DNA of 64,000 bases from Uliginosibacterium aquaticum (GTDB lineage Bacteria > Pseudomonadota > Gammaproteobacteria > Burkholderiales > Rhodocyclaceae). Under the pieces are notes generated by a model. That model saw only the letters and a list, made by a program, of their open reading frames with translations. It made no database searches and was not told the origin of the DNA. Positions 23,574 through 39,674 of this stretch are shown in pieces. Each line of letters starts with the position of its first letter. Positions within the stretch are counted from its first letter, which is position 1. The translations under genes and the position numbers were made by a program. The DNA lies in the NCBI RefSeq assembly GCF_012972705.2, contig NZ_JABCSC020000001.1, forward strand, positions 558,001-622,000, read 5' to 3'.

Positions 23574-25202
23574 ATGTTCGGCAAATTTCTGATCGGCGCA
23601 GCCGCCCTGATGCTGGGGGCCAATGCACACGCTGCGGCGGACTATCCCAGCGGCTACACGAAGTGTGCCCAGGTTGGCAGCAGTTGCAGCATGAGCGGCA
23701 GCCACACGGTGGCGCTGGGCAAGTCCGGCAGCTTTGTGTACGCCACGCTGACGGGCAATTTCACCTGTGCCCAGTCGCTGTTCACCGGCGGCAGCGCCTA
23801 CACCACCTCGGCCTGGTGCTCGGTGGGGCCGCTGGTGACGGCCGCTTCGTCCTCCTCATCGTCTGTCGCGGCGTCGTCGGTCGCCGCCTCCAGTGCGGCC
23901 CGTTCCAGCGTGGCCGCCAGTGTGGCATCGAGCGCGGCTTCGAGCGCTGCGCTGTCCAGCAGTGCCGCAGTCTCCAGCAGCGCCAGCAGCCATCCCTATG
24001 TCACTGGCTGTGGCACCGAGACCAGCAATCTGGTGGCCTCCAGGGTCTATTACGTTACGCCGACGGCCGCCAGCACCGGCGCCGGCACCAGCTTCTCGGC
24101 ACCGATGAGCTTCACTGCCGCACTGTCGGCGGTCAGCGCCGGGCAGATGATCCTGCTGCAACCCGGCACCTACAGCGTGCCCTATACCGCAGGGGCCAAA
24201 AACACCCTCACCCTGGCGAAGTCTGGCAGCGCCAGCGCCCGCATCTACATGGTGGCGGCCAACTGCGGCAAGGCCGTGATCGACTTTTCCTTCCCTGAAA
24301 ACACCTATGTCCAGGACTCCTACGGTTTCTACCTGACCGGCAGCTACTGGTACTTCAAGGGCATCGAGATCACCCGGGCCGGCTACCAGGGCGTCTATGT
24401 GACCGGTGGCTACAACACCTTCGAGAACGTGGCCTTCCACAACAACCGGAACAGTGGTCTCGAAATCAACAAGGGCGGCCATCACACCACCGTGATCAAC
24501 TCGGATGCCTACCGTAACTACGACCCGAAGAAGAACGGCAGCATGGCCGATGGCTTTGCCTCCAAGCAGACCCAGGGGGCGGGCAATTTCTTCTACGGCT
24601 GCCGTGCCTGGGAGAACTCGGATGATGGCTGGGACACCTTTGACAGTGCCGAAACAGTGATCATCGAGAACAGCTGGACCTTCCGCAATGGCGTGGATGT
24701 GTGGGGCTATGGCAACTTTGCGGGTAACGGCAACGGCTTCAAGCTGGGTGGCAACTACAAGCTGCAGCGCAACCGGATCATCAACTCGGTTTCCTTTGGC
24801 CATCCCAACAAGGGCTTTGATCAGAACAACAATGTTGGTGGCATCACGGTCATCAACAACACGTCCTTCCAGAACGGCATCAACTACGGCTTTGGTGGTG
24901 CGCTGACGGCGGGTGAGCAGAATGTCTTCACCAACAATGTGTCGCTCTCCGGCAAGGCTGCTGACAGCATCGCCAACGCGACTTCAAAGACCAATACCTG
25001 GAATGGTATTGCAGTGAGCAGCGCAGACTTCCTGAGCGTGGATACCAACCTCGCCAGCCGCAGCCGCAATCCGGATGGCTCGCTGGTCTACACCACCCTG
25101 TTCCGCCTTGTTGCCGGCAGCAAGCTGATCAATGCCGGGAGCAATGCGGGCCTGCCTTATCTGGGCGGCGCACCGGATCTGGGGGCTTTCGAGCGCGAGT
25201 GA
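23574..25202 (+). CDS. Secreted pectate lyase-like beta-helix protein (PL9-type) with serine-rich linker
   Basis: A 542-residue secreted protein. Residues 1-22 are a signal peptide (cleavage near HAAA). Residues about 23-82 form a small Cys-rich, beta-rich module (GYTKCAQVGSSCSMSG, GSFVYATLTGNFTC). Residues about 85-140 are a Ser/Ala linker of the sort used by polysaccharide-degrading enzymes. Residues about 145-540 are a right-handed beta-helix with YVTPTAASTGAGTSFSAPMS, MADGFASKQTQGAGNFFYGC and AWENSDDGWDTFDSAE, as in PL9 pectate lyases such as PelL. Ca2+-dependent cleavage of polygalacturonate is expected. GAGGAGAC precedes the ATG. Confidence 0.88.
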   Translation: MFGKFLIGAAALMLGANAHAAADYPSGYTKCAQVGSSCSMSGSHTVALGKSGSFVYATLTGNFTCAQSLFTGGSAYTTSAWCSVGPLVTAASSSSSSVAASSVAASSAARSSVAASVASSAASSAALSSSAAVSSSASSHPYVTGCGTETSNLVASRVYYVTPTAASTGAGTSFSAPMSFTAALSAVSAGQMILLQPGTYSVPYTAGAKNTLTLAKSGSASARIYMVAANCGKAVIDFSFPENTYVQDSYGFYLTGSYWYFKGIEITRAGYQGVYVTGGYNTFENVAFHNNRNSGLEINKGGHHTTVINSDAYRNYDPKKNGSMADGFASKQTQGAGNFFYGCRAWENSDDGWDTFDSAETVIIENSWTFRNGVDVWGYGNFAGNGNGFKLGGNYKLQRNRIINSVSFGHPNKGFDQNNNVGGITVINNTSFQNGINYGFGGALTAGEQNVFTNNVSLSGKAADSIANATSKTNTWNGIAVSSADFLSVDTNLASRSRNPDGSLVYTTLFRLVAGSKLINAGSNAGLPYLGGAPDLGAFERE

Positions 25203-25241
25203 TCTGCCGGCTCCGGGCGAGTCACCCGCCCTGTGGCAGAG

Positions 25242-25271
25242 AAAAGCCCACGGTTTTCCGTGGGCTTTTTT
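25242..25271. terminator. Rho-independent terminator after the PL9-like gene
   Basis: AAAAGCCCACGG and CCGTGGGCTTTT pair around TTTT, followed by a T-run. The AAAGCCCACG core recurs in the terminators near 38175, 44351 and 45889. Confidence 0.88.
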
Positions 25272-25342
25272 GTTCTGGCGCCCTCGGGCCGCGCTGAAGG
25301 CGCGGCGTAGAATCCCTCCGCCTGCTTTCGTATCTCCCACCC

Positions 25343-25945
25343 ATGCCTTTCAGCATTGCCGCCCCGGTTCATAGCGAACTCCTGATCAAGAAGAGCCGTT
25401 TCATCGCCTGCGTGCAGCCGGTGGTTGATCGTGCGGCAGCGCAGAAGATCGTGGCGGCCTTGTGGGCCGAGCATCCGGGCGCTTCGCATGTGTGCTGGGC
25501 GTTGATGGCGGGCGGGCAGTCCGCCGCGGTGGATGATGGCGAACCCAGCGGCACGGCCGGGCGGCCGATGCTCGATGTGCTGCGGCATCAGGACCTGGAA
25601 GGCGTGCTGGCGACTACCGTGCGCTATTACGGCGGCATCATGCTGGGCGCGGGTGGCCTGGTGCGAGCCTATACCGATAGCGTGGCGCAGGCCCTGCGTG
25701 GCGCGCAGAAGACGCCCATCATCCGCGTGCGCACCCTGCGCTGTGTGGCGCCCTATGCGTTGGAAGGCCTGGTGCGGCGCGCGATCGAAGCGGGTGGCGC
25801 GCAGCTGGGCGAGGTGCGCCACGGCGCGCTGGTGGAGTTCCTGATCCGCTTGCCCGAAGCGCAGGCCGAGGGCTTTGTTGCCGCGCTTGGCGAATCCGGC
25901 CAGGGGAAGATCGGCTGGTTCAAGGACGATGCTTCAGAGCTGTGA
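25343..25945 (+). CDS. yigZ: YigZ/IMPACT family protein
   Basis: A 200-residue cytoplasmic protein. ELLIKKSRFIACVQPV, ASHVCWALMAGG, DDGEPSGTAGRPML, TTVRYYGGIMLGAGGLVRAY identify the UPF0029/IMPACT (YigZ) family, with a C-terminal DUF1949-like ferredoxin-fold half (about 135-200). The biochemical role is unsettled. Its last 12 bases overlap the end of the convergent gene at 25934. Confidence 0.95.
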   Translation: MPFSIAAPVHSELLIKKSRFIACVQPVVDRAAAQKIVAALWAEHPGASHVCWALMAGGQSAAVDDGEPSGTAGRPMLDVLRHQDLEGVLATTVRYYGGIMLGAGGLVRAYTDSVAQALRGAQKTPIIRVRTLRCVAPYALEGLVRRAIEAGGAQLGEVRHGALVEFLIRLPEAQAEGFVAALGESGQGKIGWFKDDASEL

Positions 25946-26299
25946 ATCTTTCAGCAGGCGCACGCACTCATCCATGATGGAGGCGCCGAGTTCGGAGACA
26001 TGGCGCGGATCGAGCGACTCCATCAGCTCATGGGCGGTGTATAGCCCGGCCTCGCGCGACAGGCTGTCCCGGATCTGGCTGGCGAGCTGATCGCTCAGAT
26101 CTGCCAGCCGCTTGCGTTCGGACAGCGGCAGACTCTGCTGTGCACGCCCGAGCCAGTCGCTGCACAGCGCAGCGGCCTGAGCCTGGGTGATCCAGTACTG
26201 GTGATCGTAGAAAGCGGCGAGGCGATGGGCGACCAGCGCGTAAATGGCGGCGGCGCGGGCGCCGGTGTCTGGCTCGCGGCGCGTGTCTGTTGCGGTCAT
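25934..26299 (-). CDS. Hypothetical small helical protein
   Basis: A 121-residue, mostly helical protein without signal peptide or recognised motif (AAIYALVAHRLAAFYDHQYW, LCSDWLGRAQQSLPLSERKR). The start at 26299 has AGGAACC upstream. It is transcribed away from the sensor kinase gene region end at 26353 and tail-to-tail with yigZ. No function assigned. Confidence 0.7.
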   Translation of the reverse strand: MTATDTRREPDTGARAAAIYALVAHRLAAFYDHQYWITQAQAAALCSDWLGRAQQSLPLSERKRLADLSDQLASQIRDSLSREAGLYTAHELMESLDPRHVSELGASIMDECVRLLKDSQL

Positions 26300-26352
26300 G
26301 GTGGTTCCTGAAATGCCGGGAGCAGCTTTCGCCCGGCCGCCAGCATACCGAA

Positions 26353-27771
26353 TCAAGCCGCGCGCCGGGGCAGGTGGATGCAGGCCGTGACGCCCTCGCC
26401 GGGCTTCGACTGGAGGCTCAGGCTGCCGCCGTGGGCCTCGGCAATGGCCTTGGCGATCGGCAGGCCCAGACCAGTGCCGCCGGTATGCCGGGCACGCGAG
26501 GACTCGAGGCGGAAGTAGGGCTCGAAGACTTTCTCCAGCTCGCTCTCGGGAATCCCCGGGCCCTGATCGGTGATGCGGATGCGCACCTCCGTGCCAGTTT
26601 CTTCCACGCTCACCCGGATGCTGTCACCGCCGTAGAAGCGTGCGTTATCGAGCAGGTTGGCGATGCAGCGGCGCAGGCCGTGCGGGCGGGCCTTGAGCGG
26701 CTGGTTGCAGCGGCCCTCGCGCGTGATGCGGGCACCCAGCTCTTCCATGTCCTCGATCACGCTGTCGAGCAGGGCGTCGAGATTCACCGCTACCAGGGCT
26801 TCGGTGTCGGAGCCGGCGCGCAGGAAATCCAGGGTGTGGCCGATCATGGCATCCATTTCACCCAGATCGCGCTGCATCTTCTCGCGCAGCTCGGGCGCGA
26901 CGTCGCCTTCCAGGCGCAGACGCATCCGCGTGATTGGCAGGCGCAGGTCGTGCGACACGGCGGAGAGGGCCTGGGCGCGCGTATCGACGAGTCGCCGGAC
27001 GTCACGCTGCATGGTGTTGAAGGCCTGCACCGCCTGACGCACATCCTGCGGGCCGACTTCCGGCATGGGCGCCTGGTTGAGGTTCTTGGCCAGGCCCGAG
27101 GCGGCCTGTGTGAAGCGGGCCAGCGGGCGGGTGAGGCGGCGCACGGCCCAGATCGAGAGGCCGGTGGTGGCGCCCCCGAGCAGCACCAGAAGCGCGATCA
27201 GGCGATAAGGCAGATCGCCGGAGGGCATCGGCAGCAGGTGATGGAAGGTGACTACGACGCCGTCATGTAGCCGGATCTGTGCGATGTAGGTGCGCGCAAA
27301 GAATTTGCCGCGAGCGGGCTTGCTCTCATCCTTGTCATCGTCATCATGGTCTCGCTTGTCGCGGTGGGCGAGCGGAGGCGGATGCAGGCCCAGCAGCAGC
27401 GGGTCGACGCGCTCCAGCGCCAGCATCTGCACCTGCAGGCCTGCTGCCAGTTGGCGCCGGGCCTCGCTGGCAAAGTTCTGCGCATCGATCGAGCCATCGA
27501 TATTTTCGGTGGCCCATGGCAGGCTCAAGGTGAGCATGGTGGGCTGCACGCTGAGCGCCTTCACCAACAGGGGGCGTTCGGCCGGCTCGGCCAGATCCAG
27601 CACGGTGGCGATGCCGGCCATGCGCTGGGCGGAATACTCGGCGAGCAGCTTGTAGTTGAGGCGGCCGCGGTCATCCAGCAACAGCCACAGCCCGAGCATC
27701 TGCACCACGACCAGCACCACGAAGAGCGCCAGCGCGATCTGGCCGAAGAGGGTGCGCGGCAGCCACTTCAT
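26353..27771 (-). CDS. Sensor histidine kinase of an OmpR/EnvZ-type system
   Basis: A 472-residue inner-membrane kinase. TM1 is at about 12-32 and TM2 at about 190-210. The periplasmic domain of about 155 residues contains an Asp/His patch (about residues 130-149: HRDKRDHDDDDKDES). HAMP follows, then HisKA with ALSAVSHDLRLPITRMRLR (phospho-His), the N box NLLDNARFYGG, DQGPGIPESELEKVFEPY and GGTGLGLPIAKAIAEAHGG. The acidic/His stretch would suit cation sensing. It overlaps the end of the response regulator gene by four bases and is co-transcribed with it. Confidence 0.93.
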   Translation of the reverse strand: MKWLPRTLFGQIALALFVVLVVVQMLGLWLLLDDRGRLNYKLLAEYSAQRMAGIATVLDLAEPAERPLLVKALSVQPTMLTLSLPWATENIDGSIDAQNFASEARRQLAAGLQVQMLALERVDPLLLGLHPPPLAHRDKRDHDDDDKDESKPARGKFFARTYIAQIRLHDGVVVTFHHLLPMPSGDLPYRLIALLVLLGGATTGLSIWAVRRLTRPLARFTQAASGLAKNLNQAPMPEVGPQDVRQAVQAFNTMQRDVRRLVDTRAQALSAVSHDLRLPITRMRLRLEGDVAPELREKMQRDLGEMDAMIGHTLDFLRAGSDTEALVAVNLDALLDSVIEDMEELGARITREGRCNQPLKARPHGLRRCIANLLDNARFYGGDSIRVSVEETGTEVRIRITDQGPGIPESELEKVFEPYFRLESSRARHTGGTGLGLPIAKAIAEAHGGSLSLQSKPGEGVTACIHLPRRAA

Positions 27772-28478
27772 GCGCGCGCTTCCACTTTTGTGGCGAGTAT
27801 GTAGCCTTCGCTGCGCACGGTCTTGATCAGCTGCGGATCGCGCGCATCGTCGTTGAGGCGGCGGCGCAGGCGCGAAATCATCACATCGATGGTGCGGTCA
27901 AAGGGGCCAGCATCGCGTCCGGCGATGGCATCGGTGAGCTGATCGCGCGAGAACACGCAGTTGGGTGTTTCGGCCAGCATGTGCAGGAGGCGGAATTCGC
28001 CGGTTGATAGAGCGATGACAATGCCATCCTTGTCGAGCAGGTTGTGGGCCGATAGATCCAGTGTCCAGCCTGCAAAATGCAGGGTTCTGGCCGGGCGTTC
28101 CGCCGGGCCATGCTCCTCGGCTCGGCGCATGATGCTGCGGATGCGGGCGAGCAGCTCACGCGGATTGAAGGGCTTGGGCAGGTAGTCGTCCGCGCCCATC
28201 TCCAGGCCGATGATGCGATCCATGTCGTCGCCGCGCGCGGTGAGCATCAGGATCGGCAGGCGCGAGCCGGCGCGCAGCTTGCGGCACAGGCTCAGGCCAT
28301 CTTCGCCGGGCAGCATCAGATCGAGGATCAGCAGGTCGGGCGAGAATGCCGGAAGCATGGCGTGCATGGCTTTGCCGTCGTGGGCTGTCTCGACCTGGAA
28401 GCTGTTGTTGCCCAGATAGCTGCGTAGAAGTTCGGTGAGTTCCGGGTCGTCGTCGACCACCAGAATTTTCTTGCTCAT
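27768..28478 (-). CDS. OmpR-family response regulator
   Basis: A 236-residue regulator. The receiver domain has KILVVDDDPELTELL, phospho-Asp in LLILDLMLPGEDG and the Lys in DYLPKPFNPREL. The C-terminal winged helix has RLLHMLAETPNCVFSRDQLTD and DVMISRLRRRLNDDA. The ATG at 28478 starts the conserved domain directly. It is divergent from the PepSY/DUF2271/ApbE operon, and the 188-base gap holds OmpR-type direct repeats, so that operon is its likely target. Confidence 0.94.
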   Translation of the reverse strand: MSKKILVVDDDPELTELLRSYLGNNSFQVETAHDGKAMHAMLPAFSPDLLILDLMLPGEDGLSLCRKLRAGSRLPILMLTARGDDMDRIIGLEMGADDYLPKPFNPRELLARIRSIMRRAEEHGPAERPARTLHFAGWTLDLSAHNLLDKDGIVIALSTGEFRLLHMLAETPNCVFSRDQLTDAIAGRDAGPFDRTIDVMISRLRRRLNDDARDPQLIKTVRSEGYILATKVEARA

Positions 28479-28561
28479 GTCGGTCTGGATGAAATTCGTG
28501 CTTTTCAGCATAGCCCGGAAGCGTGTTTGGGCGTGCGGCTTTTTTGCATACGGAACATGCA

Positions 28562-28588
28562 GTTACAGGCATTTACACGCCATTTACA
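28562..28588. promoter_or_regulatory. OmpR-type direct repeats between regulator and flavin operon
   Basis: GTTACA, TTTACA and TTTACA begin at 28562, 28572 and 28583, one helical turn apart. This spacing is what tandem OmpR-family dimers recognise. The array lies about 80 bases upstream of the first PepSY gene and about the same distance from the regulator gene. Confidence 0.6.
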
Positions 28589-28666
28589 AAACCCCGCGAA
28601 AAGCCCATATCCGGTTCACACGCCGGTCGTTCAATGCAGGCATTCCCAAACCCCGGATGCTTCGAC

Positions 28667-29563
28667 ATGCGCTCCCTGATTCCATTTCTCACCCAAGCTC
28701 ACCGCTGGCTGGCCCTGCTCACCGCACCCGTGCTGTTGCTGATCATCCTCTCCGGCCTGGTGCTGGCTTTCAAGCCCGTGGTGGAGGCCGGGGCGCGGGC
28801 GCCGGTGGATGTGGCCAGCCTGAGCCGCGCACTCGAGCAGGCCGATCCGGGCCACAAGGCTGGCGTGATGAGTCTCTCCAGCGATGGCACGCGCTTCGTG
28901 CTGAGCTCGCGCGGCACCGGCGCCATGGGGGAGTTCGATGCGCAAAGCGGTGCACGGGTGGGCGCGGCCGGTTTCGATCTCTTCGGCCTGGCGCGCAATC
29001 TGCACACCAATCTGCTGGTGGGCGCAGGCTGGCTGGTGACGCTGACCACCAGCGTCACGGTGATCCTCTTCCTCTCGGGTTTCCTGCTCGGCTGGCGGCG
29101 CCTGCGCAACACCCTCAGTGGCTGGCATGCAGGGCTGGGCTGGCTCGCCTGGCCGCTGGCGGCACTCACACCGGTGACCGGCCTGATGATGGCCTTCCAT
29201 CTGGGTACCGCCTCCCTGCCGTACTACGAAGCGGGCCGCCCCTTGCCGCTGGTGAAGGTGATCGAGATCGCGAGTCAGCAGGTGGATCTCTCCAAGCTCG
29301 CGCAAGTGCGCACCTTCCGCGGCGGTGCCGTGATGCTGACGGTGCAGGATGAGCCGCGCGCCGCCCTCTATCTCGTGACCAGTGCCGGTGAGCTGCTGCG
29401 TAGCGGCGGGCCGGGCTGGGTGCGCATGCTCCACGAAGGCACCTGGGCCGGCGCTTTCTCCGGGCTGTTCACCTTCGTGTCGACGCTGCCGCTGCTGGGC
29501 TTGCTGCTCACCGGGCTGCTGACCTGGTGGCGTCGCCATCGCCTGCTCAACGCCGCACTGTGA
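28667..29563 (+). CDS. PepSY-type transmembrane protein, candidate membrane electron carrier
   Basis: A 298-residue protein with four predicted transmembrane segments (about 10-32, 118-142, 158-180, 265-288). Histidines cluster at membrane edges: QAHRWLALL, NLHTNLLVG, SGWHAGLGW and MLHEGTWAG, the pattern of PepSY-TM proteins thought to bind heme or pass electrons. The start at 28667 (MRSLIPFLTQAHRW) fits the family; earlier in-frame ATGs lie within the promoter region. It opens an operon that continues with a second PepSY-like protein, a DUF2271 protein, ApbE and a flavodoxin/FNR reductase. Confidence 0.85.
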   Translation: MRSLIPFLTQAHRWLALLTAPVLLLIILSGLVLAFKPVVEAGARAPVDVASLSRALEQADPGHKAGVMSLSSDGTRFVLSSRGTGAMGEFDAQSGARVGAAGFDLFGLARNLHTNLLVGAGWLVTLTTSVTVILFLSGFLLGWRRLRNTLSGWHAGLGWLAWPLAALTPVTGLMMAFHLGTASLPYYEAGRPLPLVKVIEIASQQVDLSKLAQVRTFRGGAVMLTVQDEPRAALYLVTSAGELLRSGGPGWVRMLHEGTWAGAFSGLFTFVSTLPLLGLLLTGLLTWWRRHRLLNAAL

Positions 29564-29593
29564 GCCTTTTCCAAGCATGACAGGAGCCTGAGC

Positions 29594-30268
29594 ATGAACG
29601 CACGCAGCGAATTTCTGGATCAGCAAGCGCCGGCCGCGAGCAGCGAAATCAAGGCCGCAAGCCGCCGTGCGGCATGGCTGAAAGTGTTGATGCAATGGCA
29701 CTGGATCAGCTCGGCGGTGAGCCTGATCGGCATGCTGTTCTTTGCCGCCAGTGGCATCACGCTCAACAACGCCGATGTGTTCGAAAGTGCCAGCGCCCAA
29801 GTCACCCGGCATGCTGCCGTGCTGCCGCCTGCGCTACTCGCGGAGCTCAACGCGCAACCGGGCGCCGCCGAAGATCCGCCGCCCGCCGCGCTCAAGCGCT
29901 GGCTGAGTGAGAACTGGCAACTGGCAATCTATCCGAAGGCCAGCGAATGGTCGGCGGATGAAATCTTCATCGACCTGAAGAGCCCCGGTGTGGAGGCCTG
30001 GCTGAGCGTGGATCGCCACAGCGGCGCAATCCAGTACGAAGCCAGTGATCGCGGCTGGGTGGCCTATTTCAACGATCTGCACAAGGGCAAGAACGCCGGC
30101 CGCGTGTGGGGCGGTTTCATCACCGTGTTCGGCGTGGCTTGCGTGATCTTCAGCATCACCGGCCTGCTGATCCTGCAGGTGCATGCCCGCTCGCGCTGGA
30201 AGGTGTGGCCGCTGACCGGCCTGGGGCTGGTGATCCCCTTGCTGCTGATGCTGCTCTTTGTGCACTAG
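29594..30268 (+). CDS. PepSY-associated transmembrane protein (PepSY_TM-like)
   Basis: A 224-residue protein with three transmembrane segments (about 36-56, 168-193, 203-222). WHWISSAVSLIGMLFFAASGITLNN and FNDLHKGKNAGRVWGGFITVFGV match PepSY_TM-like proteins (pfam16357 type). A periplasmic domain of about 105 residues lies between TM1 and TM2. His residues at the membrane edges may bind heme. It follows the first PepSY gene by 30 bases. Confidence 0.85.
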   Translation: MNARSEFLDQQAPAASSEIKAASRRAAWLKVLMQWHWISSAVSLIGMLFFAASGITLNNADVFESASAQVTRHAAVLPPALLAELNAQPGAAEDPPPAALKRWLSENWQLAIYPKASEWSADEIFIDLKSPGVEAWLSVDRHSGAIQYEASDRGWVAYFNDLHKGKNAGRVWGGFITVFGVACVIFSITGLLILQVHARSRWKVWPLTGLGLVIPLLLMLLFVH

Positions 30269-30298
30269 AAGCCCTGACCCATTTTGAAAGGAAGCAAC

Positions 30299-30826
30299 AT
30301 GAAAACTCGTCTCCTCACTTCCGCACTCTCCCTCCTCGGCCTGGGCATGAGCTTGCCGGCCCAGGCCGTGGAGGCCCAGCTCGACATCACCCTGCCAGTC
30401 ATCGAGGGCGCAAAGGTGCGCCGCCCGTATGTTGCGGTGTGGCTCGAGAAGGCCGCCAGTCATGACTTCGCCGGCAATATCGCGGTCTGGTATGACATGA
30501 AGAAACCCAACAACGTGGGCGCCACCAAATGGCTGCCGGATCTGCGCAGCTGGTGGAAGGCCAGCGGCAGCCAGGCGAGCTTCCCGATTGATGGGGTATC
30601 GGGGGCGACGCGTCCGGCCGGTGAGCATGTGATCAACCTCGGTGCGAGCGAGGCAGTGAAGAAACTCGCCGCAGGCGAGTATGAGGTGGTGGTGGAGGTG
30701 GCGCGCGAGCACGGCGGCCGCGAGCTGCTGCGCCTGCCGCTGCAATGGCCGCCGCGCAGCGCTGCCAAGGCCGAAGCTTCGGGGACGAGCGAGGTCGGGC
30801 TGGTGCGCCTGACGAGCAAGCCCTGA
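30299..30826 (+). CDS. DUF2271 periplasmic protein with ApbE flavinylation motif
   Basis: A 175-residue protein. The ATG at 30299 has AAAGGAAG upstream; a second ATG five codons earlier is less suitable. Residues 1-23 are a Sec signal peptide ending AQA. The DUF2271 domain follows (RRPYVAVWLEKAASHDFAGNIA, LRSWWKASG). Residues 98-104 read DGVSGAT, matching the ApbE target pattern Dxx(S/T)GA(T/S), so covalent FMN on Thr104 is predicted. Published surveys of flavinylated proteins list DUF2271 with PepSY and ApbE genes. It would be the extracytoplasmic electron acceptor or donor of this operon. Confidence 0.88.
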   Translation: MKTRLLTSALSLLGLGMSLPAQAVEAQLDITLPVIEGAKVRRPYVAVWLEKAASHDFAGNIAVWYDMKKPNNVGATKWLPDLRSWWKASGSQASFPIDGVSGATRPAGEHVINLGASEAVKKLAAGEYEVVVEVAREHGGRELLRLPLQWPPRSAAKAEASGTSEVGLVRLTSKP

Positions 30827-30836
30827 GCGTGCGGCC

Positions 30837-31844
30837 ATGAATGCACCTGCCTTCCGTGCCCTGATTCCGGCTCGCATCGATCAGGCCGCAGGCCTGCCCG
30901 AGGGCGATGTCTACAAGCTCGCCGGCAACTGCATGGGTACCACCTGGAGCGTGCGCGTGGTGGTGCGCGATCGCCTCTCGCCTCGCCAGCTGCAGGCCGA
31001 TATCGCGGCTTTGCTGGAAGGGCTAGAAGCGCAGATGAGCCACTTTCGCGCCAGCTCGCCGCTGCGCCGCTTTGCCACGCTGCCGCCGGGCTGCTGGATG
31101 GATCTGCCGGCGGAGTTTGCGCAGGTCATGCGTACCGCATTGAAAGTGGCGCATCTCAGCGAAGGCGCTTTCGATCCCGCGCTGGGCTCGGCCATCGATG
31201 CCTGGGGCTTTGGCGCCGCGCGGCGCTTCAGCGAGGCCGGCTTCGAGCCGCCCGCTGCGCCGCTGCTGCCGGGCAGGCGCTGGCAGGCTTTGGAGCTGGA
31301 CGACGCCGGTCGCCTGCGCCAGCCGGGCGGTATTGCGCTGAACCTGGCGGCCATCGCCAAGGGCTTTGCGGTGGACGCGGTGGCGGCTTTCCTGACAGGT
31401 CGGGGGCTTGAGCATCATCTGGTCGAAGTCGGAGGCGAGCTGCGCGGCAGTGGCATCAAGCCCGATGGCCAGCCCTGGTGGGTGGCACTGGAGTCTCCGG
31501 CGCAGGATTGCCCCTTGCCCGCTACGCGGGTGGCCTTGCATGGGCTGGCGGTGGCGACCTCCGGTAACTACCGGCGCTGCTATCTGCTGGATGAACGCCT
31601 GATCCAGCACACCCTCGATCCGCGCAGCGGTGAGCCGGTGGCGCATGGCCTCGCCTCAGTGACGGTAATTCATGATGAATGCATGCTGGCGGATGCCTGG
31701 GCCACGGCGCTGATGGTGCTGGGCCCGCAGGCCGGCTTGCAGCGGGCCGCAGCTCAGGGCCTGCGGGCCTTGCTGCAGTGGCGGGATGAGCGTGGCGCGT
31801 GGCACGAGGCGGCGAGCCCGGCGTTCGAGGCTTTGCTTGTCTGA
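30837..31844 (+). CDS. apbE: FAD:protein FMN transferase ApbE
   Basis: A 335-residue ApbE. GNCMGTTWSVRV, LSEGAFDPALGSAIDAWGFG, LNLAAIAKGFAVDAV, VEVGGELRGSG, VATSGNYRR and DECMLADAWATALMVLG are the family landmarks including the Mg2+/FAD site. It would attach FMN to Thr104 of the DUF2271 protein encoded just upstream. Odd point: no signal peptide is visible, and an in-frame stop at 30810-30812 prevents a longer N-terminus, although the predicted target is periplasmic. Confidence 0.92.
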   Translation: MNAPAFRALIPARIDQAAGLPEGDVYKLAGNCMGTTWSVRVVVRDRLSPRQLQADIAALLEGLEAQMSHFRASSPLRRFATLPPGCWMDLPAEFAQVMRTALKVAHLSEGAFDPALGSAIDAWGFGAARRFSEAGFEPPAAPLLPGRRWQALELDDAGRLRQPGGIALNLAAIAKGFAVDAVAAFLTGRGLEHHLVEVGGELRGSGIKPDGQPWWVALESPAQDCPLPATRVALHGLAVATSGNYRRCYLLDERLIQHTLDPRSGEPVAHGLASVTVIHDECMLADAWATALMVLGPQAGLQRAAAQGLRALLQWRDERGAWHEAASPAFEALLV

Positions 31845-31870
31845 AAATGATCTGATCCGGAAATCACAAA

Positions 31871-33286
31871 ATGATGGACAACCTTTCCCCGGAAATCTGG
31901 CGCTTGCAGGCCGCTGTGGGCCTGATCCTGGCCTATGCGCTGATGTGCTGGCGCATGTATCGCAAGGCCGCACTGGCAGGCTTGCCGGCCCCTAGGCCGC
32001 AGCCCGCTGCAGCGCTGGCAGCGGTGCGGGGAAAGCCGGTGTGGATCATTCATGCCAGCCAGACCGGGCAGGCCGAAGCGCTGGCCCGCCAGGCGGCGCG
32101 GGCGCTCGAAAAGGAGGGCGTGGAGGTGATCCAGCGGCGTATCGATCAGCCCTGGCTGGACGAGGTGAGCGCCGCCCGGCATGTGCTGTTCGTGGTCAGT
32201 ACCTATGGCGAGGGCAATCCGCCCGATCATGCCATCAGCTTCGCGCGGACCCAGTTGGCGGCTGGCCCCTGCGCGGCCTTGCGCGGCCTGAGCTATGGTG
32301 TGCTGGCGCTGGGCGATCGCAGCTATCCGCAGTTCTGCGCCTTTGGCCGCCAGCTCGATCAGTGGCTGCAGCAATCGGGCGCCAGCGCCTGCTTTCCGCG
32401 CATTGATGCGGATCGCCTCGATGCGCTCAGCCTCAAGCGCTGGCAGCAGGCCTTGCAGGGGCTTGGCGTGCACACCCCGCTGCTCACGCCGCCGCTGGAT
32501 GCCGGCTATACCGAGTGGCGTTTCATCCGCCGTCGCTGCCTCAACAGCGGCAGCCCCGGTGCGCCCTTGTTCAAGCTTGAACTGCAACCTCAGGCTGGCC
32601 TGCCGCCGCACTGGCAGGCGGGTGACCTGATTGATCTGACTCCCCCGGGGGGCGATGGCCGGCCGCGCAGCTATTCGATTGCCAACCTGCCGGAGGACGG
32701 TCATCTGGAGCTCATCGTGCGCAGCGTGCGCCGCGCCGATGGGCAGCCCGGCTTAGCCTCAGGTTGGCTCAACGAAACGGCCTGGGCCAATGACCGGGTG
32801 TCGCTGCGGATCCGCCGCAACCCTGGCTTCAATCTGGAGTGTGGTGTGGATACGCCGCTGATCCTGATCGGTGCCGGTAGCGGCCTCGCCGGTTTGCGCA
32901 GTCACCTGCAGGCGCGCGCCCGGGCCATTGCCGATTCGGGGCAGCCGGCGCCCGAGCGCAGTGCCTGGCTGATCTTCGGTGAGCGCTCGGAGCGCCATGA
33001 CCGGCCCTGCCACAGCGAGCTCGAGGCCTGGCGCCGCAGCCGCGTGCTGAGCCGTCTCGACCTGACTTTTTCGCGCGACGATCCGATCCGCGCCTATGTT
33101 CAGCACGCCCTGCTGGAAGAAGCCCAGGCTTTCCGGCAGTGGATTGCTGCCGGCGCCCAGCTCCTCATCTGCGGCAGTGCGCAGGGCATGGCGCAGGGCG
33201 TGGAGCAGGCCATGCGCGAGATCCTGGGAGACGAAGGCCTGGAGCAGCTGAGGGCCGCCGGGCGCATCCGGCGTGATGTGTATTGA
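31871..33286 (+). CDS. Membrane-anchored flavodoxin/FNR reductase (sulfite-reductase flavoprotein type)
   Basis: A 471-residue diflavin reductase. One N-terminal transmembrane segment (about 11-29) is followed by a flavodoxin domain (VWIIHASQTGQAEALARQAA, FVVSTYGEGNPPDHA, VLALGDRSYPQFCAFG) to about residue 180. An FNR half follows, with RPRSYSIANLPEDG (FAD), IGAGSGLAGLRSHLQ and the C-terminal NADPH part ending in the aromatic Tyr of RRDVY. It should take electrons from NADPH in the cytoplasm and pass them through FAD and FMN to the membrane PepSY proteins. Confidence 0.9.
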   Translation: MMDNLSPEIWRLQAAVGLILAYALMCWRMYRKAALAGLPAPRPQPAAALAAVRGKPVWIIHASQTGQAEALARQAARALEKEGVEVIQRRIDQPWLDEVSAARHVLFVVSTYGEGNPPDHAISFARTQLAAGPCAALRGLSYGVLALGDRSYPQFCAFGRQLDQWLQQSGASACFPRIDADRLDALSLKRWQQALQGLGVHTPLLTPPLDAGYTEWRFIRRRCLNSGSPGAPLFKLELQPQAGLPPHWQAGDLIDLTPPGGDGRPRSYSIANLPEDGHLELIVRSVRRADGQPGLASGWLNETAWANDRVSLRIRRNPGFNLECGVDTPLILIGAGSGLAGLRSHLQARARAIADSGQPAPERSAWLIFGERSERHDRPCHSELEAWRRSRVLSRLDLTFSRDDPIRAYVQHALLEEAQAFRQWIAAGAQLLICGSAQGMAQGVEQAMREILGDEGLEQLRAAGRIRRDVY

Positions 33287-33332
33287 GCCATGAAGCCATC
33301 GCGGACGGCGTCATGGCGCTGTGGCCTGCGTT

Positions 33333-33686
33333 TCAGTTAACCGCCCGGATCGACAGCACCTTGATCTTGGAGTAACCGAGGATCTCGCGGTCGTATTTTC
33401 CGGCGATCTCGACGCGGGTCTTGTCGTCGATTTTCAGACCGAGCGGCCAGTGCTTGTGATCGATCTTCACCAGTACCGTGGCGCTGCCATCGGTGAATTG
33501 ATAAAGATCGTCATAGGCGACGCGGCTGGTGATATGCCCCTGCAGAACGACGTGGTCATGGTCGTAGGCCTGATCAAGCAGTTGTTTGACTGTCGCGGGG
33601 GCGCCATTCGGGCCGAGGTACTGGGCCGAGGCGGCTGTGCAGGCAAGGGTAAGGGCGGTGGCGAGAAAGAGGGATTTCATTTTCAT
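33333..33686 (-). CDS. YgiW/YdeI-type bacterial OB-fold protein
   Basis: A 117-residue exported protein. Residues 1-22 are a signal peptide (cleavage ASA-QYLGP). The rest matches BOF-family proteins (TVKQLLDQAYDHDHVVLQGHITSRV, YQFTDGSATVLVKIDHKHW, VEIAGKYDRE). Homologues are periplasmic stress proteins often next to qseBC/pmrAB-like systems, as here. Divergent from the small PepSY gene. Confidence 0.92.
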   Translation of the reverse strand: MKMKSLFLATALTLACTAASAQYLGPNGAPATVKQLLDQAYDHDHVVLQGHITSRVAYDDLYQFTDGSATVLVKIDHKHWPLGLKIDDKTRVEIAGKYDREILGYSKIKVLSIRAVN

Positions 33687-33755
33687 TCCTTTGTGATTAA
33701 AACGATGAAGGTGTCGCTCGTTTGATGCTGTGAGAAGGAGCGATGGAATGCAGTC

Positions 33756-33835
33756 TGAACCTAGCTGGGTGAACGGTGGCTGAACGCCCGTGGGCCGGTG
33801 CTTCGAAGTGTGCGGCCTTGTTCATCTGGCGTTCA
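33756..33835. promoter_or_regulatory. Paired OmpR-type direct repeats in a divergent promoter region
   Basis: TGAAC occurs at 33756, 33770 and 33781 on the plus strand, and GTTCA (the same word on the minus strand) at 33820 and 33831. The inner copies of each set are 11 bases apart. The arrangement gives each of the divergent genes (OB-fold at 33686, PepSY at 33908) its own tandem site, suited to the response regulator at 34254. Confidence 0.6.
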
Positions 33836-33907
33836 GACAGGGCTTGCCACACTGCGCAGCGCATTCTCTGCAGCGCCGCTGCAATGGATTTCAGGAAATG
33901 GTTCCGC

Positions 33908-34240
33908 ATGAAAACCTGGTGTGTCCGGCCCGCTCTTCTCACTGCCGCACTGGCCCTTGGCTGGCCGGCCGGGGCCAGTGCGGGCGACAAGTTCGAGCAG
34001 GATCGCGCGCGTGCGGCCCTGCAGTCCGGTCAGGCGATGTCTTTTGCCGCCGTGCAGGAGCGTTTGCACAAGGCCTGCGACTGCCAGGTGCTGGAGGCCA
34101 AGCTGCATCCGGAGAAGGACAGCAGCGGGCTGATCTACGAGATCAAGGCGCTGCGGCCGGACGGGCAGATCCTCAAGCTCGAGATGAATGCTGCTTCCGG
34201 CGAAATCCTGCGCATGAAGAACAAGGGCTGGAAAGACTGA
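33908..34240 (+). CDS. Small periplasmic PepSY-domain protein
   Basis: A 110-residue protein. Residues 1-26 are a signal peptide (AGASAG). The mature part is a single PepSY domain (SGQAMSFAAVQERLHKACDC, LIYEIKALRPDGQILKLEMNAASGEI). Such proteins are encoded with QseB/PmrA-like systems and are thought to modulate signals or bind metal. Thirteen bases separate it from the response regulator gene. Confidence 0.88.
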   Translation: MKTWCVRPALLTAALALGWPAGASAGDKFEQDRARAALQSGQAMSFAAVQERLHKACDCQVLEAKLHPEKDSSGLIYEIKALRPDGQILKLEMNAASGEILRMKNKGWKD

Positions 34241-34253
34241 GCGGAGAGCACTG

Positions 34254-34925
34254 ATGCGGATCCTGATTGCGGAAGATGAACCCCGGCTGCAACAGCAGCT
34301 CGTGAGCCTCGTCGAGGAGGCTGGCTATGTGGCCGAGGCCAGCAGCGACGGGCAGGACGCCCACTATCGCGGCAGCACCGAGGTCTTTGATGCGGTGGTG
34401 CTGGATCTGGGCCTGCCCTTGCTGGACGGGCTCAGCGTGCTCAAGCGCTGGCGCGAGGCCGGCCTCAGCCTGCCGGTGCTGGTGCTCACTGCGCGCGGGA
34501 ACTGGCACGAAAAGGTCATCGGCATCGATGCCGGTGCCGATGATTACCTCGCCAAGCCCTTCCACGGGCCGGAGCTGGTGGCACGCCTGCGCGCACTGAT
34601 CCGGCGCAGCGCCGGCCTGGCCTCGGCAATCCTGCGTAGCGGCGCGCTGAGCCTGGATACCCGCAATGCCACGGTCAGTTTCGGGGGCGCGCCGGTCGCG
34701 CTGACCAGCCATGAGTACAAGCTGCTCGAATACCTGATGCACCGGCAGGGCGTTATCGTGTCGCGGGCCGAACTCACCGAGCATATTTACGCGCAGGACT
34801 TCGATCGCGATTCAAACACCATCGAAGTCTTTGTCGGCCGCCTGCGCAAGAAACTCGAACCCGGCGTGATCCAGACCGTGCGTGGCCTCGGCTACCGCAT
34901 CGCGAGCCATGAGCAAGTCAGCTGA
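34254..34925 (+). CDS. OmpR-family response regulator, QseB/PmrA-like
   Basis: A 223-residue regulator. MRILIAEDEPRLQQQL, phospho-Asp in VVLDLGLPLLDG, and DYLAKPFHGPELVARLRALIRR form the receiver; VALTSHEYKLLEYLMHRQGVI and EVFVGRLRKKLEPG form the DNA-binding wing. It overlaps the kinase gene by 17 bases. The 11-base-spaced TGAAC repeats upstream suggest autoregulation together with the PepSY and OB-fold genes. Confidence 0.94.
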   Translation: MRILIAEDEPRLQQQLVSLVEEAGYVAEASSDGQDAHYRGSTEVFDAVVLDLGLPLLDGLSVLKRWREAGLSLPVLVLTARGNWHEKVIGIDAGADDYLAKPFHGPELVARLRALIRRSAGLASAILRSGALSLDTRNATVSFGGAPVALTSHEYKLLEYLMHRQGVIVSRAELTEHIYAQDFDRDSNTIEVFVGRLRKKLEPGVIQTVRGLGYRIASHEQVS

Positions 34926-36339
34926 GCACGCCCAACCGCCCACCCGGGCGCCGCGCTCCTTGCGGGTGCGCCTGCTGTGGGGCACCCTGGGCGGACTCAC
35001 CCTGGCCCTGCTGCTCACTGGGGTTGCGCTGACGACCCTGTTCAAGGATCACGTGGTCAACCAGTTCCAGGCCGCACTGGAGCGCCAGCTCGATCAGTTG
35101 ATCGTCGAGCTCGAGTTCGGGTCGGATGGCCAGCTCACGGTGGATGACGCTGCCATGCTCGACCCGCGTCTGCAGAAGCCGTACTCCGGCCTCTACTGGC
35201 AGATCGACGAACTCGCGGCCGGCAAACCGATCACCCTCGGGCTGCTGCGTTCGCGCTCCCTGTGGGATCAGAATCTGGCGCTGAGCGGCGCCGTGGCGGC
35301 GAATCCCGGCGCCTTGCAGGTCAGCGAGCTGCGCGGGCCGGCCCAGGAGTCCCTGCTGGTGCTGCAAAGAATCGTGAGCTCGGCGGATGCGCCCGGGCGC
35401 AGCTTCCGCCTCACGGTGGCGGGCGATCTGCGTTTCAATCTCGAAGCCACGCATCGTTTCGGCCGCGCCCTGGCGCTGGCCTTGCTGCTCCTGCTGGGGC
35501 TGCTGGCGCTGGCTGCCTGGGCCCAGGTCAGTGTCGGCCTGCGTCCGCTGCGTGATCTGCAGCAGGCGCTCAAGGCCGTGCGTGAAGGGCGCAGCGCGCA
35601 GCTTGCCGGCGCCTTTCCACAGGAAGTGCAGCCGCTGGTGGATGACTTCAATCAGGTCTTGCTGGCCAATGCCAGCGTCGTGGAGCGGGCACGCACCCAG
35701 GCCGGTAACCTGGCCCATGCCCTCAAGACGCCGCTGGCCGTGCTGGAGAACGAGGCCGAGCAGGCGCGTGCACACGATGCCGCCCTTCCGGTGGCGCTGG
35801 TGAAAGAGCAGCTGGCCCAGGTGCGCCGCCATGTGGATTGGCATCTGCTGCGCGCACGCGCCGCGGCCGCACACCGCCTGCCCGGCCGGCATACCGAGGT
35901 GAATGCCGCGGTGGCGGGCCTGCTGCGGGTGATGGCGCGGGTGTTTGCCGACAAGCCGCTGACGACGCACATCGAAGCGCCGGAACAAGCGCTGCTGTTT
36001 GCCGGTGAAGAACAGGATCTGCAGGAAATCCTCGGCAATTTGCTGGAGAACGCATTCAAGTGGGCCACTTCCAGTGTGCAGGTGCGGCTGGAGGCGCAGC
36101 CGGGTGGCTTGTGCGTGCACATCGAAGATGACGGGCCGGGCATTGCCGCCTCACAGCTCCAGCTGGTTCGCCAGCGCGGTGTGCGCCTTGACGAGAGCAC
36201 GCCGGGTTCTGGCCTGGGGCTCGCTATCGTGCAGGATCTGGTGCTGCTCTATGGTGGCCACCTGGAGTTGGAAAACCTGCCGCAAGGGCACGGCCTGCGT
36301 GCCAGCGTATCCCTGCCGGGAGGCCATGCCGCCGCCTGA
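34909..36339 (+). CDS. Sensor histidine kinase, PhoQ/QseC-like
   Basis: A 476-residue kinase beginning at ATG 34909 within the end of the regulator gene. TM1 is at about 26-47 and TM2 at about 182-205, with a periplasmic domain of about 135 residues between them. The HAMP-like linker leads to the phospho-His in AGNLAHALKTPLAVLENEAE, the variant seen in PhoQ-like kinases. NLLENAFKWA, DDGPGIAASQ and GSGLGLAIVQDLVLLYGG complete the ATP domain. The signal is unknown; the PepSY neighbour suggests envelope or metal stress. Confidence 0.93.
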   Translation: MSKSAEHAQPPTRAPRSLRVRLLWGTLGGLTLALLLTGVALTTLFKDHVVNQFQAALERQLDQLIVELEFGSDGQLTVDDAAMLDPRLQKPYSGLYWQIDELAAGKPITLGLLRSRSLWDQNLALSGAVAANPGALQVSELRGPAQESLLVLQRIVSSADAPGRSFRLTVAGDLRFNLEATHRFGRALALALLLLLGLLALAAWAQVSVGLRPLRDLQQALKAVREGRSAQLAGAFPQEVQPLVDDFNQVLLANASVVERARTQAGNLAHALKTPLAVLENEAEQARAHDAALPVALVKEQLAQVRRHVDWHLLRARAAAAHRLPGRHTEVNAAVAGLLRVMARVFADKPLTTHIEAPEQALLFAGEEQDLQEILGNLLENAFKWATSSVQVRLEAQPGGLCVHIEDDGPGIAASQLQLVRQRGVRLDESTPGSGLGLAIVQDLVLLYGGHLELENLPQGHGLRASVSLPGGHAAA

Positions 36340-36463
36340 GCCCAGGCGCGGGCGGGCGTCTTTACCTGCGCAGATTTTCCTGTACGAGAACTTACCTTGT
36401 AGCCACTTGATGCTGCTGCGTGAGCAGCCAGAATCAGGTCTGTGCAATCAAAAAGGAAATTCC

Positions 36464-38149
36464 ATGCGCAAGCGAGATGCCCTGAGAGTGCTGCTGGCAT
36501 TGGCAGCCAGTCTTCTGCTGTGCCCCGGGGTGCAGGCCGCTACGCCGGAGGTGGTGAAACCGGTCCAGTCCTGCACCGGATTACTGGCTACCGCGCTGAG
36601 CGATATCGGTGGCGAGGGCAGTCAGGTGCTCAGCGCCCGTGAAAGCGTGAAGGATGGTGTGACGATGTGTGTGCTGGAAGGCCGCCTCGCACCCGCCATC
36701 GGTTTCCGGGTCAGCCTGCCCGTTGAGGGCTGGACTCAGCGCTACCTGCAGATCGGTTGTGGCGGCCTGTGTGGCCGTATCCCCGAAGAGGTCGGTGCCG
36801 CCGAGGGCTGCGTGCCGCTCAAGGCGGGGGGCTTCGTCATCGCTTCCACCGACATGGGGCATCAGGGTATGGGCGGCGAGTTCGGTCGCGACGAAGCCTT
36901 GCGCATCGATTTTGCCCATCGCGCCGTGCATCTGACTGCCGTGGCCGCGAAGAAGCTCATCCGCGCCTATTACGGCCGTGCCGAGGCTTTTGCCTATTTC
37001 ACCGGGTGCTCGGATGGCGGGCGCGAAGCCCTGATGGAAGCTCAGCGCTACCCGGAGGATTTCGACGGAATCATTGCGGGTGCGGCGGCCATGAATTTCC
37101 AGGTCCAGAACGGCCTCTACCATGCCTGGCAGGCCAGTGCGAATACCGGAGCGGATGGCCAGGCCATCCTGCAGGCGGCGCGCCTGCCCTTGCTGCATCA
37201 GGCCGTGCTCGCGCAGTGCGATGGACTCGACGGGCTGCAGGACGGCCTGCTCAGCGATCCGCGCTTGTGCCATTTTGATTCGGCCAGCCTGCAGTGCCCG
37301 GTCGGAGCCACATCGCCCCGCAGCGATTGCCTGAGTGCTGCCGAAGTTGATGCGGTGCGCAAGCTCTATGCCGGCCCGCGCGATCCGCGCAGCGGCGAGC
37401 GGCTGATCATCGGTGGCCCGCAATATGGTTCCGAACTCGCCTGGGCCGGCGTATTCGTGCCGCGTGCAGCGGGCCAGCCGATCTTCAGCGGCCAGATCGC
37501 GCTGGATGCGCTGCGCAACCTGAGCTTCGAGCGCAATCCGCCGGAAAGCTTTTCCCTGGCCGACATCCACTTCGATCAGGCCATGCTTGAGCAGCTCAAG
37601 CCCCTGCATCCGCTTTACGACGCGACCAACCCCGATCTGCGCGCCTTCGCCGCGGCGGGCGGCAAACTGATCCTGTGGCATGGCTGGGCCGATCCGCATA
37701 TCTCCCCCCTCAATACCCTCGCCTATCACGAGGCCCTCGAGCAGTTCATGGGCAAACAGGAAGCCGCCGCGTTCGAGCGCCTCTATCTGTTACCCGGCGT
37801 CTATCACTGCGCTGACGGAGAAGGCCCGAGCCTGGTCGATTTCCTCACCCCGATGCTGGCCTGGGTAGAGCAGGGGCAGGTGTCGCAGGCTGTCCTGGCC
37901 AAGCAGGCCGCCAGTCGCCCGCGCAGCAGCTTTGGCCAGCCCGGCGCACTGTCGCCGGCGGTGGAGGCTTCACCGGCTCCGGCCAAAACCAGGGCCCGAC
38001 CGCTCTATCCCTACCCGGCGCTGGCTGCACTCAAGCCCGGCGCCGATCCGGATCAGGCTGCCAGTTACACTGCTGCGCCGGCCCGGTTCACGGCATCGAC
38101 GCCGGCTTGGGCCGGCAGCAGTTTATTTACGCCTTATCGCGCCAAATAA
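36464..38149 (+). CDS. Tannase/feruloyl esterase family protein, secreted
   Basis: A 561-residue secreted esterase. AAAAGGAA precedes the ATG at 36464, and residues 1-24 are a signal peptide ending VQA. The catalytic set is visible: Ser183 in YFTGCSDGGREAL, Asp in ILWHGWADPHISP, His in LPGVYHCADGEGP, with the adjacent cysteines of the CS-D-HC motif. WTQRYLQIGCGGLCG and STDMGHQG are family motifs. It should release hydroxycinnamate or gallate esters from plant polymers, matching the pectate lyases nearby. The Pro/Ala-rich stretch at about 485-505 separates the catalytic part from a short tail. Confidence 0.92.
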   Translation: MRKRDALRVLLALAASLLLCPGVQAATPEVVKPVQSCTGLLATALSDIGGEGSQVLSARESVKDGVTMCVLEGRLAPAIGFRVSLPVEGWTQRYLQIGCGGLCGRIPEEVGAAEGCVPLKAGGFVIASTDMGHQGMGGEFGRDEALRIDFAHRAVHLTAVAAKKLIRAYYGRAEAFAYFTGCSDGGREALMEAQRYPEDFDGIIAGAAAMNFQVQNGLYHAWQASANTGADGQAILQAARLPLLHQAVLAQCDGLDGLQDGLLSDPRLCHFDSASLQCPVGATSPRSDCLSAAEVDAVRKLYAGPRDPRSGERLIIGGPQYGSELAWAGVFVPRAAGQPIFSGQIALDALRNLSFERNPPESFSLADIHFDQAMLEQLKPLHPLYDATNPDLRAFAAAGGKLILWHGWADPHISPLNTLAYHEALEQFMGKQEAAAFERLYLLPGVYHCADGEGPSLVDFLTPMLAWVEQGQVSQAVLAKQAASRPRSSFGQPGALSPAVEASPAPAKTRARPLYPYPALAALKPGADPDQAASYTAAPARFTASTPAWAGSSLFTPYRAK

Positions 38150-38174
38150 ATCCGCCGAAAGTTTTGCTCCTAAA

Positions 38175-38205
38175 AAAAGCCCACGGAAATCGTGGGCTTT
38201 TTGCT
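38175..38205. terminator. Rho-independent terminator after the tannase-family gene
   Basis: AAAAGCCCACG and CGTGGGCTTTTT pair around GAAAT, ending in a T-run. It shares its core with other terminators in this window. Confidence 0.88.
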
Positions 38206-38365
38206 GTCTTGCAGCAATTCTGATAAATCCTTGTTTTGATTGTTGATGTTTATAAAAACAAAAAAATCTGTCGGCTGGTCGAAGTTCGATTGCGTCTTGT
38301 ACATGCGGATGATTGCTCTGACGCGCAAAAACGCGGGTCTGGATGGTTACTACTTTAGTGGTGTG

Positions 38366-38400
38366 TGACAAATTTCTCGGATATCACTAAGTATTTGTCA
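38366..38400. promoter_or_regulatory. Spaced inverted repeat upstream of the PL3 gene
   Basis: TGACAAAT and ATTTGTCA are perfect complements 19 bases apart. This is a candidate regulator site, about 350 bases upstream of the pectate lyase start. Confidence 0.35.
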
Positions 38401-38746
38401 AAACAAATAAATTGTATGTTTTCGAACTAATTTAGTGTTTTGATTTTAAAGGAATTGTTTGCTCTCCTATGGAGGTGTATTGGGGTTTACCTAAGTGTCG
38501 CCGTTCCGGCTTTTGTAGTTTTATTGCCTCGCCGGCTGTGGTTGAGAGTAAAGCTTGTGTCCGACACGATCAGTGGCATTCGTCGTGGTGTGAGTGGAGT
38601 GATTTGTCATCTCCGAATAGGACACAATTTTTTACGGACAACGATCCTCGAGCGAGGTCGCTGGCTGGTTGTATATAGGATGTATTTCGGAGACGCAGTC
38701 ATATATTTTTATTGTTAAATCAATAAAAAACAAAAAGGAGTCGTTT

Positions 38747-39583: not shown

Positions 39584-39610
39584 TTCCTTCCTGCTGGATG
39601 CAGTTCAAGA

Positions 39611-39634: not shown

Positions 39635-39674
39635 CATTGTCCTTCCCGATTCGCCGCGTAACTGGAGTCTGAGC

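Follow-up and report, generated by a model that had tools for sequence, protein, structure and literature searches.

We examined a 64,000-nucleotide stretch of the Uliginosibacterium aquaticum genome (4.09 Mb, 13 contigs), here called the window (positions 558,001 to 622,000 of contig NZ_JABCSC020000001.1, assembly GCF_012972705.2), which carries a candidate transmembrane electron-transfer operon (Table 1). Its five plus-strand genes, at 28667-33286 and separated by gaps of 10-30 bases, encode two PepSY-type membrane proteins (PepSY-1 and PepSY-2), a DUF2271 protein, the flavin mononucleotide (FMN) transferase ApbE and a flavodoxin/FNR reductase, so that in Pfam terms both PepSY families (PF03929 and PF16357) adjoin ApbE and DUF2271. 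The operon is real; its kind is known, and its configuration is unusual. An initial annotation of the window had proposed a single operon of these five genes, and all were found as described, with the Pfam domains named; its PepSY assignments also stood, while its description of the two proteins as His-rich did not (seven His in 298 residues and six in 224).

Table 1. Features of the operon and of its divergent regulator genes (positions within the window).
Feature	Position	Strand	Assignment and evidence
EnvZ-like sensor histidine kinase	26353-27771	-	Pfam HATPase_c, HAMP, HisKA
OmpR-family response regulator	27768-28511	-	Pfam Response_reg, Trans_reg_C
Promoter footprint GTTACAGGCATTTACACGCCATTTACAAAACC	28562-28593	+	TTACA three times in direct repeat at 10-11 base spacing; probable box of the response regulator
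PepSY-1	28667-29563	+	PepSY_TM PF03929, E 2.8e-24; 7abw match; tree with fused relatives
PepSY-2	29594-30268	+	PepSY_TM_like_2 PF16357, E 7e-70; three conserved His; AlphaFold model
DUF2271 protein	30299-30826	+	PF10029, E 9.9e-39; DGVSGAT motif (T104); signal-sequence-like N-terminus
ApbE FMN transferase	30837-31844	+	PF02424, E 3.2e-71; 5mgy match; no hydrophobic N-terminus, predicted cytosolic
Flavodoxin/FNR (CysJ-like) reductase	31871-33286	+	Flavodoxin_1, E 2.2e-26; NAD_binding_1, E 1.1e-8

Used as query, the window DUF2271 protein found matches in 19 of 150 genomes of the family, and among 200 order genomes DUF2271 was detected in 21, 19 of them exceeding the family cut-off (the window genome is included in both counts). 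Outside the window record, 115 DUF2271 loci were examined, in which three genomes appear twice (as L048/L188, L069/L178 and L072/L192). The next recognised gene is ApbE at a distance of at least 400 bases in 79 and the reductase, again at least 400 bases away, in 24; ApbE follows within 100 bases in three (L048, L107, L188), and nine have no recognised next gene. The core order thus recurs in 103 of the 115 loci, an arrangement far beyond chance. Because 99 of the 103 open reading frames that fill the larger gap match DUF4198, the usual order is PepSY-2, DUF2271, DUF4198, ApbE and reductase, with ApbE sometimes missing. No DUF4198 gene was found in the window operon, nor anywhere in the window genome at E 0.001. 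The window version is unusual: DUF4198 has been lost, a second PepSY gene, for a predicted membrane cytochrome, has been gained, and a two-component pair lies adjacent in place of the usual Fur site.

Clusters of PepSY, DUF2271 and ApbE genes involved in flavinylation were described by Meheust et al. (2021, eLife; PMC8238504), and the electron circuit that the initial annotation drew for the window is reasonable and not new. As in those clusters, the window has a PepSY-like membrane protein, a DUF2271 protein with the [S/T]GA[S/T] motif and ApbE, a combination for which that paper proposes electron transfer to a periplasmic flavin; unlike the clusters as they are presented there, it lacks DUF4198, has two PepSY proteins and a divergent two-component pair, and its ApbE is predicted to be cytosolic. 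DUF4198 is a common companion and not a defining member, being reported in 1500 of 3220 clusters (PMC8238504). A second close parallel is Caulobacter crescentus CC_3059-CC_3063 (CCNA_03155-03159), where a membrane protein, DUF2271, ApbE and a sulfite-reductase-type flavoprotein follow in the same order (PMC3751524). In contrast to the window, this operon includes DUF4198, is listed among the iron-responsive, Fur-regulated genes and, in the gene listing of that paper, shows no second PepSY gene (PMC3751524).

PepSY-1 is the member that this usual form does not contain. Its model (predicted local distance difference test score, pLDDT, 76) matches the Pseudomonas aeruginosa siderophore reductase FoxB (7abw) in Foldseek (E 4.4e-9) and in VIA (Z 14.2, root mean square deviation 5.8, 279 aligned residues, 19% identity), far ahead of the other chains listed, of which the next reached Z 6.1; on this modelling PepSY-1 has the FoxB fold. 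Searching solved structures by sequence yielded no convincing relative for PepSY-1, PepSY-2 or DUF2271 (for DUF2271 the top row was a designed helical repeat at E 1.8e-5, in which no single stretch passed alone). FoxB-type reductases hold two hemes, each bound by two His; five His residues of PepSY-1 (H12, H113, H154, H178, H256) do not vary across 11 rows, that of the window among them. The FoxB electron donor is called unknown in the literature, so far as our sources treat it, and the window operon includes a flavodoxin/FNR gene.

Close PepSY-1 relatives are rare, occurring in eight of 150 family genomes (E 1e-10) and three of 399 order genomes (E 1e-15), own genome included in both, and tblastn at E 1e-4 found none in 80 named loci or in L048-L083 within the flanks covered. 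Besides the window and a second Uliginosibacterium genome (G344), the relatives are frames of 730-849 residues that run on into flavodoxin and FNR domains, a fusion confirmed by Pfam for L106; the exceptions are L112 (513 residues) and L199, which match the flavodoxin part only, and L200, a partial, 178-residue frame. PepSY-1 thus appears, by domain content and phylogeny, to be unfused kin of the membrane half of PepSY-flavodoxin-FNR fused reductases. In the PepSY-1 tree the window and G344 proteins cluster together (support 100/98), which is most simply read as one fission event at the domain border, although the tree does not fix how the nearest branches, including L106, are ordered. In three loci (L109, 7766-13436, and also L110 and L111), the genes that come after the fused reductase are of outer-membrane efflux, HlyD and ABC transporter type and are not iron genes; these neighbours were assigned by Pfam for L109 and by eye for L110 and L111.

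The window reductase is not the lost half of PepSY-1. It aligns with CysJ (6efv, E 1.6e-38) in two stretches, 57-193 and 264-463, which take in RPRSYS (RxYS) and SRD..YVQ segments that we take to serve flavin adenine dinucleotide (FAD) and reduced nicotinamide adenine dinucleotide phosphate (NADPH) binding. Pfam likewise finds both a flavodoxin and an FNR-type NAD(P)H domain, and the protein is, by its sequence, a CysJ-like diflavin reductase and a predicted NADPH user. One hydrophobic segment, seen by eye, precedes the flavodoxin domain and is presumably a membrane anchor, in agreement with the membrane-anchored flavodoxin/FNR protein proposed initially. In a reductase tree, drawn with a midpoint root, the three Uliginosibacterium proteins form one group (100/100) within the stand-alone reductases, and the seven fused reductases nearest to the kin of PepSY-1 form a separate group (100/99), which places the window reductase in another clade. 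The fused L106 protein, found in a further Uliginosibacterium genome (G210) and among the closest kin of PepSY-1, differs from the window system in being one chain, with no DUF2271 or ApbE adjacent and with an FNR half of the other clade; it shares the same regulator pair. Two other loci (L082, 3217-7080; L083, 5695-10057) combine DUF2271 and ApbE with a different fused flavodoxin-FNR reductase, which has its own branch in the reductase tree.

PepSY-2 has three conserved His residues (H36 in 109 of 110 rows, H163 in all 110 and H197 in 102 of 110) and a confident AlphaFold model (pLDDT 89.7). A VIA-align 2 search with this model gave no chain at Z 8, and FoxB was absent among the rows shown, a result that excludes nothing. 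At residues 129, 166 and 177, 107 of the 110 rows have P, R and D, while three rows, the window's included, have K, K and T.

The operon shares a 155-base promoter region with the divergent regulator and kinase genes, and from this position the OmpR/EnvZ-type pair probably controls it. A close kinase is present in four of eight Uliginosibacterium genomes, the window's included (63-100% identity; next best 43%), so that three of the seven other genomes (G269, G344, G210) have orthologues 63-78% identical, and in the same three genomes a response regulator 76-83% identical lies beside PepSY reductases. The pair flanks a PepSY reductase in all four genomes, and the type of reductase differs among them: the five-gene hybrid in the window and G344, a four-gene set lacking PepSY-1 in G269, and, in G210, one fused reductase chain of 740 residues. 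A less closely related pair (regulator 42% identical) is divergent from a PepSY-1 relative in G321 (L112). The kinase has an acidic, His-bearing periplasmic loop, HRDKRDHDDDDKDE, with acidic forms in G269 and G210; we considered it as a conserved metal-sensing feature and, because it is absent in G344, do not use it as evidence.

The repeat block in the promoter recurs, conserved and in the same position, in G269 and G344 and is degenerate in G210; when the promoters are aligned with hand-set anchors, pairs are identical at 21-29 of 34 columns within the block and at 31-50 of 78 outside it. A pattern of three TTAC repeats at 10-11 base spacing, written after the congeneric promoters and L112 had been viewed and not matching the degenerate G210 version, occurs eight times in 4,113,142 strand-bases of collected loci. 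Six of these matches are reductase promoters (the window; L048 and, from the same genome, L188; L107 at 9933; and an overlapping pair in L112); the others lie elsewhere in L107 (at 2992) and in L109 at 6853, about 0.9 kb before the fused reductase and not in its immediate promoter. A chromosome-wide regulon was rejected, as the box with at most two mismatches was found once in the genome and a reversed control pattern also once. The best Fur-site match in the window promoter, 10 of 19, equals the commonest value in 200 shuffles. In contrast, 21 of 110 homologous upstream regions match the Fur consensus at 14 of 19 or better, although, since only the 350 bases before PepSY-2 were scored in these homologues, the 89 regions below that level do not show that a Fur site is absent.

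Flavinylation of the DUF2271 protein is suggested by its [S/T]GA[S/T] ApbE-substrate motif, DGVSGAT, whose Thr is residue 104 of the 30299-30826 product as had been indicated; the initial pairing of a DGVSGAT-bearing DUF2271 protein with ApbE likewise holds in Pfam and in the alignment, where the motif is intact. The window ApbE matches a solved ApbE (5mgy, E 1.2e-54), and in Amantichitinum ursilacus a DUF2271 protein was flavinylated by its cognate ApbE while a Thr-to-Ala variant was not (PMC8238504). The last Thr of the motif is invariant in 32 aligned rows, and its other positions vary: DGVTGPT is found in many Xanthomonadaceae with ApbE, and DGVTSAT-like forms in many family genomes without operon ApbE. 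The rule that the motif is lost when the operon loses ApbE, which seemed true in much of the window's family, fails over 112 loci, where a GA motif occurs with ApbE in 49 and without it in 14, and other motifs with ApbE in 32 (in one, L116, the pattern found no motif) and without it in 17; some rows without ApbE are cut contigs or split frames (e.g. L117, and L154 with ApbE in two pieces). This split leaves no general rule linking motif and ApbE, and an ApbE was found somewhere in all 23 genomes checked, including those without one in the operon.

The location of ApbE is less straightforward. The window DUF2271 protein has an N-terminal hydrophobic run of 15 residues, the window ApbE none of at least 10, and a second, lipoprotein-like ApbE of the same genome that served as control (G000:C8, L084; lipobox-like N-terminus) one of 14. 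Across the collected loci, a run of at least 10 was scored in 11 of 74 operon ApbE rows versus 104 of 108 DUF2271 rows, using a simple hydrophobic-run heuristic, not SignalP, that was generous in trying all possible starts (three duplicate loci were dropped, one ApbE lacked a start, and rows lacking the core pattern were omitted). Of the ApbE rows with a run, only L159, L161 and L186 resemble genuine signal peptides in our judgement; most of the 84 ApbE rows viewed, with the window and duplicates included, show none. The initial annotation had missed this signal-less ApbE, as well as the DUF4198 loss, the kinship of PepSY-1 with fused reductases, the probable two-component control and the description of the system type in 2021.

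Of the remaining scanned window proteins (23574-38146), one each is of beta-helix, UPF0029, BOF and tannase type and one is unknown; the others are a small PepSY protein and a second regulator/kinase pair. Directly downstream of the operon, at 33333-36339, lie a BOF (YgiW-like) gene, the small PepSY gene and a PmrA-like regulator/kinase pair; relatives of this pair sit beside ApbE loci in L082 and L083. We considered the three-part set as part of the system and excluded it because it was not found adjoining the operon in L048 or L107. The G+C content falls to 0.57-0.60 over 36001-48000, versus 0.64-0.68 in the rest of the window, possibly marking a foreign stretch. Elsewhere in the genome (L085, 901-5190; G000:C6, about 32.9-37.2 kb), a Sigma-70-type factor, FecR and a TonB receptor stand with an adjacent PepSY_TM match, forming a separate siderophore-type locus.

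We consider it moderately probable that the operon encodes a transmembrane reductase of the PepSY/DUF2271/ApbE kind, driven by NADPH and controlled by a sensor. The genes, domains, motif, promoter footprint, split domain architecture and missing DUF4198 are read from the sequence, and the PepSY-1 fold from its model; topology, hemes, flavinylation, electron order, acceptor and regulation are inferred. Given the predicted membrane topology, electrons would pass from NADPH to FAD and FMN in the cytosolic, membrane-tethered flavodoxin/FNR protein, and from there to putative hemes on the conserved His residues of PepSY-2, PepSY-1 or both. PepSY-2 would then reduce an FMN on Thr104 of the periplasmic DUF2271 protein, while PepSY-1, with its FoxB-like fold, may also reduce a ligand directly in a periplasmic cavity. 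By analogy with homologues, this linear order from heme to FMN is plausible, and two distinct outlets from the membrane are just as possible. The final acceptor would most likely be a metal chelate, ferric in the first place and cupric in the second, and the divergent OmpR/EnvZ-type pair, acting on the TTAC repeats, would control expression in place of Fur. Iron is suggested by the Caulobacter operon with the shared core, which is listed as iron-responsive and Fur-regulated (PMC3751524) and whose mutants lose fitness in ethylenediaminetetraacetic acid (EDTA; PMC12004947). Several observations weigh against this proposal. Flavinylation in the cell is not self-evident, because ApbE looks cytosolic and DUF2271 exported; PepSY-1 seems dispensable for the rest of the operon, as the G269 operon lacks it; and the regulator's signal need not concern flavinylation, as the G210 pair has no DUF2271 or ApbE beside it. 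Moreover, PepSY-2 has no significant fold match in Foldseek (the top row, FoxB, is weak, with E 0.01 and a template-modelling (TM) score of 0.24), and the link to iron rests on homologues that nearly always have DUF4198 and in part have Fur-like sites, neither of which was found here.

The nearest competitor, which we place a little short of an even prospect, is an ordinary iron-assimilation PepSY/DUF2271 reductase in which only the regulation has changed and PepSY-1 is a redundant second ferric-chelate reductase. The core shared with Caulobacter CC_3059-3063, its recurrence in most DUF2271 loci and the Fur-like sites of some homologues all speak for it, whereas the scanned 23574-38146 proteins include no TonB receptor or ferrous transporter family, Fur-site matches in the window promoter do not rise above those in shuffles, no DUF4198 turned up in the genome, and the separate sigma factor/FecR/TonB-receptor locus has a PepSY_TM match of its own. 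It is rather unlikely, in our view, that the periplasmic target is instead cupric copper used in assembling oxidases, or compounds that are oxidised or undergo redox cycling in an envelope stress, sensed by the kinase. Two-component control would fit envelope or metal sensing, the Bordetella PepSY_TM protein CrpH, a possible analogue, is reported to support heme-copper oxidases (PMC13038864), and tripartite-efflux-type genes adjoin the fused reductase in L109-L111; yet no copper-handling family turned up in the scanned neighbours (23574-38146), and the acidic/His loop of the kinase is not kept in G344.

On the one hand, the cytosolic look of ApbE could mean that DUF2271 is exported first and stays flavin-free in the cell, with ApbE serving another protein; the scarcity of N-terminal runs among operon ApbE rows (the window's has none) and the persistence of the operon around homologues with a non-GA motif are consistent with this. 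We find it improbable, since the three Uliginosibacterium operons seen all keep the motif intact, with ApbE 8-11 bases after DUF2271, and a related pair, both proteins described as signal-peptide-truncated, gave flavinylation on co-expression (PMC8238504). On the other hand, an ApbE without a signal peptide beside a DUF2271 with one suggests that flavinylation might precede export. In much of the operon class, a signal-less cytosolic ApbE would then flavinylate the DUF2271 precursor, which would be exported with its covalent FMN; in Uliginosibacterium this would be joined by a hybrid relay, in which one sensor governs two branches, PepSY-2/DUF2271 and an orphaned FoxB-type PepSY-1, both served by a reductase from one lineage. 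We hold this combined reading to be doubtful, and slightly more so than we otherwise would, because the Amantichitinum ApbE construct is described as truncated (PMC8238504), which implies that some class members have an ApbE signal peptide, and because a 2025 ApbE review (PMC12052999) cites a paper whose title speaks of localization-controlled specificity. That review also mentions an ApbE in the cytosol whose substrate is a soluble fumarate reductase (PMC12052999). Our literature search, which covered articles without their supplementary tables, found no account of a signal-less ApbE serving an exported DUF2271 protein.

Whichever acceptor the proposed NADPH-driven reductase serves, its more interesting features are the exchange of reductases beside one sensor and the puzzle of where ApbE acts. 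The reductase next to this regulator pair is apparently swappable, appearing as a fused chain, a flavinylated four-gene set or a five-gene hybrid while the sensor and the promoter box stay, as if transmembrane electron delivery, and not one particular carrier, were selected. For a widespread operon, the location of ApbE raises the question of how an exported protein gains its covalent flavin from a transferase without an export signal.

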